Source: Flavobacterium sp. (GTDB lineage Bacteria; Bacteroidota; Bacteroidia; Flavobacteriales; Flavobacteriaceae). From it: a DNA stretch of 64,000 nt. The position numbers were made by a program, and so were the translations under genes. The DNA lies in the NCBI RefSeq assembly GCF_027533505.1, contig NZ_JAPZUB010000003.1:1-64000 (forward strand). The letters run 5' to 3'. Shown here piece after piece: positions 45,402-54,471 of the stretch (within the stretch, counting starts at the first letter, position 1; each line of letters begins with the position of its first letter). The notes under the pieces were generated by a model. That model worked only from the letters and a program-made list of their open reading frames with translations. It did not search any database and had not been told where the DNA came from.

Positions 45402-45539
45402 TTATCCTGGAAGTTTTGAATTTGGCGAATGCACCGGTTGAATGTCAATAGTGACACAACGACGGCCATAACATTTCATCCGTTTTGGGCCACACGCTAC
45501 AAAACTCAATGCCAAAAGGAATACTACGACTTTTCTCAT
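45402..45539 (-). CDS. 45-residue lipoprotein coupled to GH3 gene
   Basis: Too short for the ORF track. The minus strand encodes MRKVVVFLLALSFVACGPKR followed by a short tail with two more cysteines and a proline-rich end, 45 residues in all. Residues 1-15 are a signal peptide and C16 sits in a lipobox-like SFVAC, so it is probably lipidated. The ATG overlaps the GH3 stop as ATGA, which suggests translational coupling. I recognise no family; the remaining 29 residues are mostly polar and basic. The region 45328-45401 contains nothing else I can support. Confidence 0.65.
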   Translation of the reverse strand: MRKVVVFLLALSFVACGPKRMKCYGRRCVTIDIQPVHSPNSKLPG

Positions 45540-47065
45540 AAGAAATGGGGTGTTTGTTGTAACCCTAATAGTTGCTCCAAATAATCCCGTTGGTTGGATA
45601 AACGTGGAATTTTATTTTGTCCTCCCAATTTATTGCGCTCTTTCAGCCAATCGTAGAACAAGTTCTCTCGGGCGACATTCACTTTCAACGGGTTTAAGGT
45701 CATATTGTTGTAACGTTTGGCTTCGTAATCAGAATTCAACGATTGCAAGGTTTCGTCCAAAAGTTTGGCAAAGGCCTCCATCGACTCCGGTTTTTGGGCA
45801 AATTCGATCATCCATTCATGGGCGCCCTTTTCTTTACCTTGCATAAAAATAGGAGCCACGGTATAATCTTTAATTTCACATTGCAACTGTTTACAGGTTT
45901 CGGCCAAAGCGCGATCGGTATTTTCCACCATCAATTCTTCGCCAAATACATTGATAAAATGCTTCGTACGTCCCGAAACCCGAATTCGATAGGGATTTAG
46001 CGAAGTAAAGCGCACCGTATCGCCAATCATATAGCGCCATAAGCCTGAGTTGGTGGTGATGACCACAGCATAGTTTTTGTCGCATTCTACCTCGGCCAAC
46101 CGAACGATTTTTTGCTCTGAAGTACCAAAAGTGTCCATCGGAATGAATTCGTAAAAAATGCCGTAATCCAACATCAACAATAAATCACTCGAATAATTTT
46201 GATCTTGAATGGCGAAAAAGCCCTCGCTGGCATTATAAATTTCGTAATATTTGAATTCTGTCTTTGGAATGATTTTTTGGTATTGCTCACGGTAGGGTTC
46301 AAAACTAACCCCGCCATGAAAATAGACTTCCAAATTGGGCCAGAGCTCCAACAAATTAGTTTTCCCTTCTTCGTGCAACATACGGTTAATCAATACGAGC
46401 ATCCACGAGGGAACTCCAGCGAAACTCGTGACATTTTCATTTTTAGTTTCTTGAATAATGGCGGCCAATTTGGTTTCCCATTCACTCATCAATGAAGTTT
46501 TATTGCTCGGGGTGCTGCTAAACTCGGCCCAAAGCGGCATGTTTTCAATGAGTATCGCCGACAGGTCTCCAAAATACGTATTGTTGTTGGCATAGATTTG
46601 CGAACTGCCTCCAAGGCGTAAACTTTTTCCCAAAAACAAGCCCGAATCGGGGTTATTATGTAAGTACATCGCCAGTAAATCTTTGCTGCCTTTGTAATGA
46701 CAATCCTCCAAGGCTTCATTGCTCACCGGTATAAATTTACTTTTGGCATTGGTCGTTCCGCTCGATTTGGCAAACCACTTGATGGGAGAATGCCAAAAAA
46801 TATTTTGATACCCCCTGCGGGTTTCTTCAATGAGGGGTTCCAAATCTTCATAACTAGAGACGGGCACACGATCAATGAAGGTTTGGTAACTTTTGACCGA
46901 GGCGAAATCATATTTTTTACCAATCACCGTTTCCTCACAATTACGAATCAGGTTCAATAACAAATCTTCTTGAACTTCATTAGGGTATTTTAAAAACAAC
47001 TCAATTTGGTGAATGCGTTGTTTTAATACCCAAGAGGCGATGGAATTGATGATGGGAAATGGCAT
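45536..47065 (-). CDS. GH3 auxin-responsive promoter family protein
   Basis: A 509-residue member of the GH3 family, ANL-type adenylate-forming enzymes. In plants these conjugate amino acids to auxin or jasmonate; bacterial members have no assigned substrate. Visible motifs include AKSSGTTNAKSKFIP near 105-120 (phosphate-binding loop), YNASEGFFAIQ near 280-290, and YRIRVSGRTKHFINVFGEELMVENTD near 357-382. Length is typical. It is divergent from DUF2797, a pairing seen often in Bacteroidota, and ends in an ATGA overlap with a tiny lipoprotein gene. Confidence 0.9.
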   Translation of the reverse strand: MPFPIINSIASWVLKQRIHQIELFLKYPNEVQEDLLLNLIRNCEETVIGKKYDFASVKSYQTFIDRVPVSSYEDLEPLIEETRRGYQNIFWHSPIKWFAKSSGTTNAKSKFIPVSNEALEDCHYKGSKDLLAMYLHNNPDSGLFLGKSLRLGGSSQIYANNNTYFGDLSAILIENMPLWAEFSSTPSNKTSLMSEWETKLAAIIQETKNENVTSFAGVPSWMLVLINRMLHEEGKTNLLELWPNLEVYFHGGVSFEPYREQYQKIIPKTEFKYYEIYNASEGFFAIQDQNYSSDLLLMLDYGIFYEFIPMDTFGTSEQKIVRLAEVECDKNYAVVITTNSGLWRYMIGDTVRFTSLNPYRIRVSGRTKHFINVFGEELMVENTDRALAETCKQLQCEIKDYTVAPIFMQGKEKGAHEWMIEFAQKPESMEAFAKLLDETLQSLNSDYEAKRYNNMTLNPLKVNVARENLFYDWLKERNKLGGQNKIPRLSNQRDYLEQLLGLQQTPHFL

Positions 47066-47272: not shown

Positions 47273-48067
47273 ATGTCTTACGAAGGTGTATTAACCAAAA
47301 TGCAAACCGAATTTCAAGCACCTATTCAATACTATTTGGTTTTTGAAAACAGTTTTTTACACATGAACCAACTTTTGGGGAAGCCGCTTGCCATACACCA
47401 TACGGGCTACCAATGTTTGCAATGTGGAAAAGCCAAGAAAATTTTTAGACAAGGGTTTTGTTACGATTGTTTTATGCAAAGTCCGTCGGCAGGCGATTGG
47501 ATTATGAAGCCCGAATTGAGTACCGCCCATTTGGATATTGAAGATCGGGATTTGGACTATGAAAAACGAATCCAATTACAACCCCACATCGTTTATTTGG
47601 CCCTTTCAAGTGATGTCAAAGTGGGGGTTACCCGAAAAACGCAAGTGCCTACACGCTGGATTGATCAAGGAGCGGTTCAAGCCTTGCCTATCGTAGAAGT
47701 GCCCAATCGGTATTTGGCAGGAATTACCGAAGTCGCGTTGAAACAGTATTTCGCCGACAAAACCAACTGGCAAAAGATGTTGAAAAATGAAGTGCCCACC
47801 GCCGATTTGCCTTACATGCTCACTACATTGGCAGAAAAACTCCCAGAGGAAGTGCGTCCTTATTTTGATCTAAATGCCAATAGCCTTTGGGAATTGCACT
47901 ATCCCGTACTGCAATACCCTTCCAAAGTAGTGAGTCTCAATTTGGACAAGTCGCCATTTTATGAAGGTAAACTAGTAGGAATTAAAGGGCAATATTTGCT
48001 TTTTGAAGATCAAACGGTGTTTAATGTACGCACCTATGAAGGCTATACGGTAAGTATTGAAGTATAA
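47273..48067 (+). CDS. DUF2797 protein (zinc ribbon plus probable GIY-YIG-like domain)
   Basis: A 264-residue protein assigned to DUF2797. Four cysteines (C48, C51, C63, C66; CLQCGKAKKIF, CYDCF) form a likely zinc ribbon. Residues about 104-166 read like a GIY-YIG or T5orf172 domain: IVYLALSSDVKVGVT (106-120; positions of the GIY and YIG strands), R128, GA at 133-134, then E153-V-A-L with F160 and N165-W166. Those are the positions of the catalytic arginine and glutamate of that superfamily. The typical tyrosines are only partly present. Function unknown; a nucleic-acid role is an inference. Confidence 0.8.
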   Translation: MSYEGVLTKMQTEFQAPIQYYLVFENSFLHMNQLLGKPLAIHHTGYQCLQCGKAKKIFRQGFCYDCFMQSPSAGDWIMKPELSTAHLDIEDRDLDYEKRIQLQPHIVYLALSSDVKVGVTRKTQVPTRWIDQGAVQALPIVEVPNRYLAGITEVALKQYFADKTNWQKMLKNEVPTADLPYMLTTLAEKLPEEVRPYFDLNANSLWELHYPVLQYPSKVVSLNLDKSPFYEGKLVGIKGQYLLFEDQTVFNVRTYEGYTVSIEV

Positions 48068-53298: not shown

Positions 53299-53334
53299 AG
53301 TTAATCTGAGCAACTTTTACTTATTTTGCGCTTC

Positions 53335-54471
53335 ATGAATGCACAACACACTATAGTAGTCGCTTTAGGAACCAATATGGGGAATAAACCCGAGAATTTG
53401 GTGCAATGTGTGGCGCAAATCCACCAAGAGATTGCCACCGTTGTTGCTGTTTCTTCGGTGTATGAAAGTGACTCGTGGGGATTTGAAAGTGCTTCGTTTC
53501 TCAATTGTGTGCTTGTGGTTCATTCGTACAAATCGCCCCAAAAATTATTAAAAGCATTTCAACGCTTGGAGCAAACGATGGGACGAAGAGTAAAATCAAC
53601 GTCGGAGTATCAAGACCGCATCATCGATATTGATATCATCAGTTACGATGAGGAGTGTTTCACTACAGAAACCTTGACCTTGCCCCATCCGCATCTGTCG
53701 GAACGGTTGTTTGTGTTGCGCCCTTTGCAGGAAGTACTCCCGTATTGGAAAGAGCCTCTCACGGGAACCTCGGTAAAGGCTTTACTTAGCGCTTGTGCCG
53801 ACAAGGGACGTTGTGAGCGTGTGGGTTCGATGCCTCAACCCTTAGCCAAAATCACCTTAGACAAGTTCAATTATATTGCCATCGAGGGGAATATCGGCGC
53901 TGGGAAAACTACGTTAGCTTCCAAAATTGCAGCGGACTTTAATGGGAAAACAGTCTATGAACGTTTTGCCGACAACCCGTTTTTACCCAAATTTTACAAA
54001 GATCAAAGCCGGTATGCTTTTCCGTTGGAAATGTCGTTTTTGGCCGATCGCTACCAACAAATTTCCGACGATCTCTCGCAATTCGATTTGTTTAAAGACT
54101 TTATCGTAGCGGATTACCACATATTCAAGTCGCTTATTTTTGCCAAGGTTACCTTAGCCGAAGATGAATATCGATTGTACAAAACGCTTTTTGATATCAT
54201 TTATAAGGAAATGCCCAAGCCCGATTTGTATATTTATTTGTATCAAAATACAGCGCGCTTGTTGGCCAATATTCGCAAAAGAGGTCGCAGTTATGAGCAA
54301 GAAATCCCCGCCGACTATTTGGAGCGAATCAACAGTGGGTACTTGGATTTTATCAAAACCCAACAAGGCCTTAATGTATTAGTCATCGATGTTTCTGAAT
54401 TGGATTTTGTAAAACATCAATCGGACTATGTTTTTATTCTCGATAAAATTCAGGAAAGTCTAGCGCTTTAA
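53335..54471 (+). CDS. folK: FolK-deoxynucleoside kinase fusion
   Basis: A 378-residue two-domain protein. Residues 1-160 are 6-hydroxymethyl-7,8-dihydropterin pyrophosphokinase (VALGTNMGNKPENL, SWGFES, QDRIIDIDIISYD, LPHPHLSERLFVLRPL), a folate-synthesis enzyme. Residues about 178-378 are a deoxynucleoside kinase with P-loop GNIGAGKT (185-192), ERFADNPFL and KRGRSYEQEIPADYL; this salvages deoxynucleosides. The fusion appears in related flavobacteria to my recollection. ATG 53335 is preferred over the TTG three codons upstream. Its 3' end overlaps the convergent T9SS cargo gene by 12 bases. Confidence 0.92.
   Translation: MNAQHTIVVALGTNMGNKPENLVQCVAQIHQEIATVVAVSSVYESDSWGFESASFLNCVLVVHSYKSPQKLLKAFQRLEQTMGRRVKSTSEYQDRIIDIDIISYDEECFTTETLTLPHPHLSERLFVLRPLQEVLPYWKEPLTGTSVKALLSACADKGRCERVGSMPQPLAKITLDKFNYIAIEGNIGAGKTTLASKIAADFNGKTVYERFADNPFLPKFYKDQSRYAFPLEMSFLADRYQQISDDLSQFDLFKDFIVADYHIFKSLIFAKVTLAEDEYRLYKTLFDIIYKEMPKPDLYIYLYQNTARLLANIRKRGRSYEQEIPADYLERINSGYLDFIKTQQGLNVLVIDVSELDFVKHQSDYVFILDKIQESLAL

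Follow-up and report, generated by a model that had tools for sequence, protein, structure and literature searches.

The window, i.e. the whole 64,000-nucleotide stretch of Flavobacterium sp. DNA analyzed here, contains an intact open reading frame at positions 47273-48067 (+ strand) that encodes a protein of 264 amino acids. The gene product was assigned to DUF2797 (PF10977) by a Pfam profile match covering residues 36-260 (E = 6.3e-91, 304.7 bits versus a cut-off of 25); it is a full-length, ordinary member of this family that shows no difference from it. The gene is present as a single copy in its Flavobacterium sp. genome. The features of the gene and of its divergent neighbor are as follows.

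45536..47065, - strand: GH3-family gene, divergent neighbor, given for context only (PF03321, E = 4e-61; 207 bp between the start codons)
47273..48067, + strand: DUF2797 gene (open reading frame and PF10977 match, 264 amino acids)
47273..47410, + strand: N-terminal β segment, residues 1-46 (AlphaFold2, pLDDT 94-98)
47411..47473, + strand: C4 zinc ribbon or knuckle, residues 47-67, with C48, C51, C63, and C66 (sequence)
47483..47581, + strand: linker, residues 71-103, here without a second Cys cluster (alignment)
47582..47782, + strand: predicted GIY-YIG/T5orf172-like domain, residues 104-170 (hhalign to T5orf172, model topology, lowest-entropy segment)
47594..47596, + strand: Y108, Tyr of the 'GIY' half-motif (invariant in 32/32 members, aligned with the T5orf172 Tyr)
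47618..47620, + strand: K116, at the position of the YIG Tyr (invariant in 32/32; Lys in 30/30 T5orf172 sequences)
47654..47656, + strand: R128, predicted catalytic Arg in the first helix (invariant in 32/32 and 74/74, aligned with the invariant T5orf172 Arg)
47666..47668, + strand: Q132, position R+4 (invariant in 32/32; Gln at R+4 in 7/30 T5orf172 sequences)
47729..47731, + strand: E153, predicted metal-binding Glu in the second helix (invariant in 32/32 and 74/74, aligned with the T5orf172 Glu)
47957..48061, + strand: C-terminal β segment, residues 229-263 (GIKGQYL...VFNVR; model strands 229-238, 241-244, 248-251, and 258-263)

Of 297 genomes sampled from the phylum Bacteroidota, 40 contain DUF2797, among them every one of the 37 from the window's order (31 from the window's family, six from a second family); no genome of this order was among the listed genomes without a match, a listing sorted by kinship. 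In a wider sampling drawn from plasmid records, relatives were identified on plasmid or chromid records of Gammaproteobacteria, a cyanobacterium, haloarchaea, and Actinomycetota, and the genome of Haloferax volcanii, used as a control, also contained a member. No DUF2797 relative was detected in the viral contigs scanned with six queries. DUF2797 is also carried by two records named 'Acinetobacter phage', of which the one examined looks bacterial rather than phage. CAKLQH020000018.1 (L037), labeled 'Acinetobacter phage MD-2021a', has the DUF2797 gene amid porin, HIT, and ABC-transporter genes and thus appears to be a bacterial contig.

In the DUF2797 layout, a GIY-YIG/T5orf172-like active-site pattern is flanked by a zinc-binding knuckle and a small β domain. 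The C4 zinc ribbon proposed in the first-pass annotation is present in the sequence as C48-x2-C51 and C63-x2-C66. Profile searches with the ribbon gave weak matches to uS14-type zinc knuckles only (ribosomal uS14/eL37, E = 0.14-0.9). The ligand C66 (47468-47470) gives way to an acidic residue, Asp or Glu, in six of the 74 flavobacterial members, and one Bacteroidota member (L217) has lost three of the four zinc Cys residues, with C48 alone left and all nuclease-type invariant residues kept. The confidence of the structural model is lowest at residues 71-100 (pLDDT 66-76), which largely correspond to the linker. In most members outside the Flavobacteriia, a second Cys cluster (e.g. CDMC.....C.....C.........C) directly precedes the nuclease-like domain (examples are L031, L032, L034-L038, L181, and L184); it is missing from Flavobacteriia, Streptomyces, and Salinibaculum and partly kept in the Bacteroidota member L216. 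This cluster may possibly form another zinc or an Fe-S site.

Conservation was evaluated in 74 flavobacterial members (64-80% identity) and in a set of 32 diverse members from Bacteroidota, Gammaproteobacteria, cyanobacteria, Actinomycetota, and haloarchaea, with identities down to approximately 17%. All elements of the pattern described earlier for the window protein were present at the claimed residues (IV107Y108, K116VG118VT, R128, QGA, E153-V-A-L, F160, and N165W166). As a family trait, the pattern held in part: R128 and E153 were invariant in all 74 flavobacterial and 32 diverse members, whereas NW is not family-wide and F160 varies in the alignment. Invariant in 32/32 diverse members were C48, H105, Y108, K116, V117, G118, R128, Q132, G133, A134, A137, and E153; judged from the alignment, this is the predicted GIY-YIG set plus C48, H105, QGA, and A137. 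Sequence entropy was lowest in residues 104-170 (0.40 bits), compared with 0.66 bits in the ribbon and about 0.9-1.0 bits in the β segments. This minimum, the invariant columns, and the less constrained ribbon of L217 place the selected core in the GIY-YIG-like domain. A motif expression matched 81 of the 1,236 open reading frames in the window and 80 related loci (about 1 Mb), all of them DUF2797; shuffling the window protein 20,000 times produced no match. Since the family was already known when the expression was drawn up, these figures measure specificity, not discovery. N165 (E+12) is present in 21/32 members. It would coincide with N88 of UvrC if the UvrC glutamate is E76, a correspondence that is only suggestive.

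For the profile comparison, DUF2797 residues 95-180 were aligned by hhalign with 30 T5orf172 domains from Bacteroidota genomes, giving a probability of 86.3% and a score of 33.2. Using the 32 members with another master sequence, values of 75.3% and 29.5 were obtained; a set reduced to the query and the archaeal and actinobacterial members reached 87.7%, and one lacking these archaeal and actinobacterial sequences 52%. In control comparisons, 400 column shuffles stayed at scores ≤21.9 and probabilities ≤22%, reversed profiles gave 0.1%, and nine unrelated families gave ≤0.5%, whereas T5orf172 versus PF01541 as positive control gave 96%. In the unforced alignment, Y108, K116, G118, R128, and E153 each met a T5orf172 column in which the same residue is conserved; among 300 shuffles, such coincidences numbered zero in 186, one in 107, two in six, and three in one. 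The profile comparison called for in the first-pass annotation recovered T5orf172 with a probability of 75-88%, and all four catalytic positions lined up. The domain part following the hairpin, taken alone, scored 11.2, which is within the range of shuffles (average 7.2, maximum 14.5), so the hairpin carries most of the T5orf172 score. The direct comparison of DUF2797 with the PF01541 profile was not significant (1.2%), and the link to GIY-YIG therefore runs through T5orf172. An hmmscan of 23 DUF2797 members revealed no GIY-YIG family, T5orf172 and MUG113 included, even at E = 10, and scans against PHROGs, PADLOC, and NCBIfam gave nothing meaningful.

An AlphaFold2 model calculated from a shallow alignment (the window protein and 73 relatives) had a pLDDT of 91.3 and a pTM of 0.86. 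It comprises strands 105-111 and 115-121, helix 127-131, strand 136-143, and helix 146-157, and this modeled ββαβα succession at 105-157 is the order of elements of the GIY-YIG fold; judged by this order, the model gave no sign of a fold devoid of the GIY-YIG sheet, which had been named earlier as evidence against the assignment. Y108 and K116-V-G are located in the β hairpin (105-111, 115-121), with Lys instead of Tyr at the YIG position, R128 lies in the first helix after the hairpin, and E153 in the helix that follows the third strand. In a Foldseek search of the whole model against the viral structures of BFVD, a phage GIY-YIG nuclease ranked first (E = 0.018) and the eleventh match was named GIY-YIG endonuclease; no match in this search was significant (all E ≥0.018). 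No GIY-YIG structure was among the best 50 PDB matches of either the whole or the domain-only model. The latter was weak (pLDDT 75), and its PDB matches were unrelated proteins, mostly superoxide dismutases.

DUF2797 shares with T5orf172 (PF10544) and MUG113 (PF13455) the signature VY...K(I/V)G.T with Lys at the YIG Tyr, an Arg about 10-12 residues after this Lys, and a helix Glu 24-33 residues after the Arg; Gln at R+4 occurs in DUF2797 and in some T5orf172/MUG113 sequences. The distance from K to R is 12 in DUF2797 (14 in one member) and 10-12 in T5orf172. The spacing of R and E, previously said to match the nuclease superfamily, is close to that of T5orf172 (24-25 versus 26-33 in 30 sequences) but shorter than in some classical GIY-YIG enzymes such as Hpy188I (65). 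Unlike T5orf172, DUF2797 has an invariant H105, QGA..A, a zinc ribbon, and β segments at both ends, and it was absent from the viral contigs scanned, whereas many described T5orf172 proteins stem from phages or homing elements. The LH and (E)FF/WF motifs, which follow the Glu in T5orf172 as ALH and (E)(F/W)F, do not occur in DUF2797; it is therefore probably a sister family to T5orf172 in the GIY-YIG superfamily and not T5orf172 itself. With GIY-YIG PF01541 (URI/UvrC/homing endonuclease type) it has the superfamily motif order in common, at a direct profile match of only 1.2%. The predicted site of R.Hpy188I (Y63, K73, R84, Y88, E149; PMC2630997) parallels Y108, K116, R128, Q132, and E153 of DUF2797, a likeness by residue order only; both have Lys at the YIG Tyr (K73 in Hpy188I), and they differ in the R-to-E distance (65 versus 25) and at R+4 (Tyr88 versus Gln). 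DNA cleavage by the T5orf172 enzyme Odn/Gp88 is abolished in its E180A form (PMC8263062), so the nearest relatives of DUF2797 include real nucleases.

The profile match, the invariant R128 and E153, and the model topology support the GIY-YIG reading of DUF2797, and residues 104-170 very probably adopt a GIY-YIG/T5orf172-type fold. From these data we infer catalysis, metal use, and residue roles: DUF2797 is likely an active nuclease (probability approximately 0.65). Residues 104-170 would make up the nuclease fold, in which Y108 and K116, the latter replacing the YIG tyrosine, may activate water or help proton transfer, R128 would hold the scissile phosphate, and E153 would bind one divalent metal. 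Q132 may take the place of the Tyr or His of other members, and the zinc ribbon together with the N- and C-terminal β segments probably contacts nucleic acid or a partner. A housekeeping role in DNA (or RNA) processing is favored, as the genome holds one copy of the gene, each sampled genome of the order has it, and no relative was detected in the viral contigs scanned. A wider reading is offered tentatively: in DUF2797, bacteria and archaea may share an ancient, chromosomally encoded GIY-YIG nuclease that has an active-site variant of its own (Gln at R+4, Lys at the YIG position, and His next to the Tyr of GIY) and would serve an undescribed DNA/RNA maintenance step, with the second Cys cluster outside Flavobacteriia as a conceivable regulatory metal or Fe-S site. 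The GIY-YIG assignment of DUF2797 was not found in the papers searched and may already stand in a database; a 2006 survey of the superfamily placed COG1833 and COG3680 in it as uncharacterized families, and DUF2797 was unmentioned. A family present in at least five phyla thus gains a concrete nuclease hypothesis with the named residues Y108, K116, R128, and E153, and a conserved chromosomal relative of T5orf172 would suggest that this fold also has a role in the cell itself.

A protein with the same fold could instead lack nuclease activity and use the pocket to bind, but not hydrolyze, a nucleic acid (for instance in translation or RNA metabolism) or some other ligand. The invariant residues H105, Q132-G-A, and A137 outside the known catalytic set, the weak resemblance of the ribbon to ribosomal zinc knuckles, and the conserved, single-copy chromosomal gene, which sets DUF2797 apart from most described T5orf172 genes, would fit such a function. 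However, binding need not demand four catalytic positions that are invariant across bacteria and archaea, and Lys at the YIG Tyr occurs in Hpy188I (PMC2630997) and T5orf172 sequences as well; we consider pure binding rather unlikely. Less probable still is convergence, in which a 'VY...KVG.T' β hairpin would have arisen within an unrelated α/β fold. The dominant contribution of the hairpin to the profile score, the Foldseek and PDB results, and the missing PF01541 match are in line with it, but the downstream R and E are in register at similar spacing and in the same order of secondary structure elements, the scores of shuffled and unrelated profiles remain far below, and a GIY-YIG protein heads the viral structure ranking.

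The location 'beside GH3', also part of the first-pass annotation, applies to the lineage of the window: a GH3 gene is divergent and adjacent in 108/109 loci (80/80 genome-contig loci and 28/29 further loci from the window's family). This association and the zinc ribbon of DUF2797 had been noted before (PMC9425974). A joint function of the two proteins in small-molecule conjugation, which would make the nucleic-acid reading misleading, could be derived from it. However, no GH3 gene was detected in the roughly 3 kb around DUF2797 in nine more distant Bacteroidota, nor in the annotated gammaproteobacterial, cyanobacterial, archaeal, and actinobacterial neighborhoods, where the neighbors differ. 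The GH3 link is lineage-bound synteny, and a joint conjugation function is very improbable. The nuclease reading receives no pathway from the context either, as the neighbors vary, comprising pepN and rhomboid genes in Pseudomonas, QueE/FolE and thymidylate kinase genes in Streptomyces, and a Piwi protein gene in Halocatena.

DUF2797 has been linked to rhomboid and M1 peptidase (PMC12804078), and the order rhomboid-DUF1315-DUF2797-pepN on a Pseudomonas plasmid fits this link; it was not counted as evidence for a protease role of DUF2797. On two Streptomyces plasmids (L182 and L183), the DUF2797 gene is part of a conserved run with QueE, FolE, thymidylate kinase, methyltransferase, and NUDIX genes, which suggests a connection to modified nucleotide metabolism. 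On the Halocatena plasmid (L034), the Piwi-domain gene follows DUF2797 on the same strand. Elsewhere in the window (53326-54471), one open reading frame fuses an HPPK domain (folate biosynthesis) with a deoxynucleoside kinase domain.
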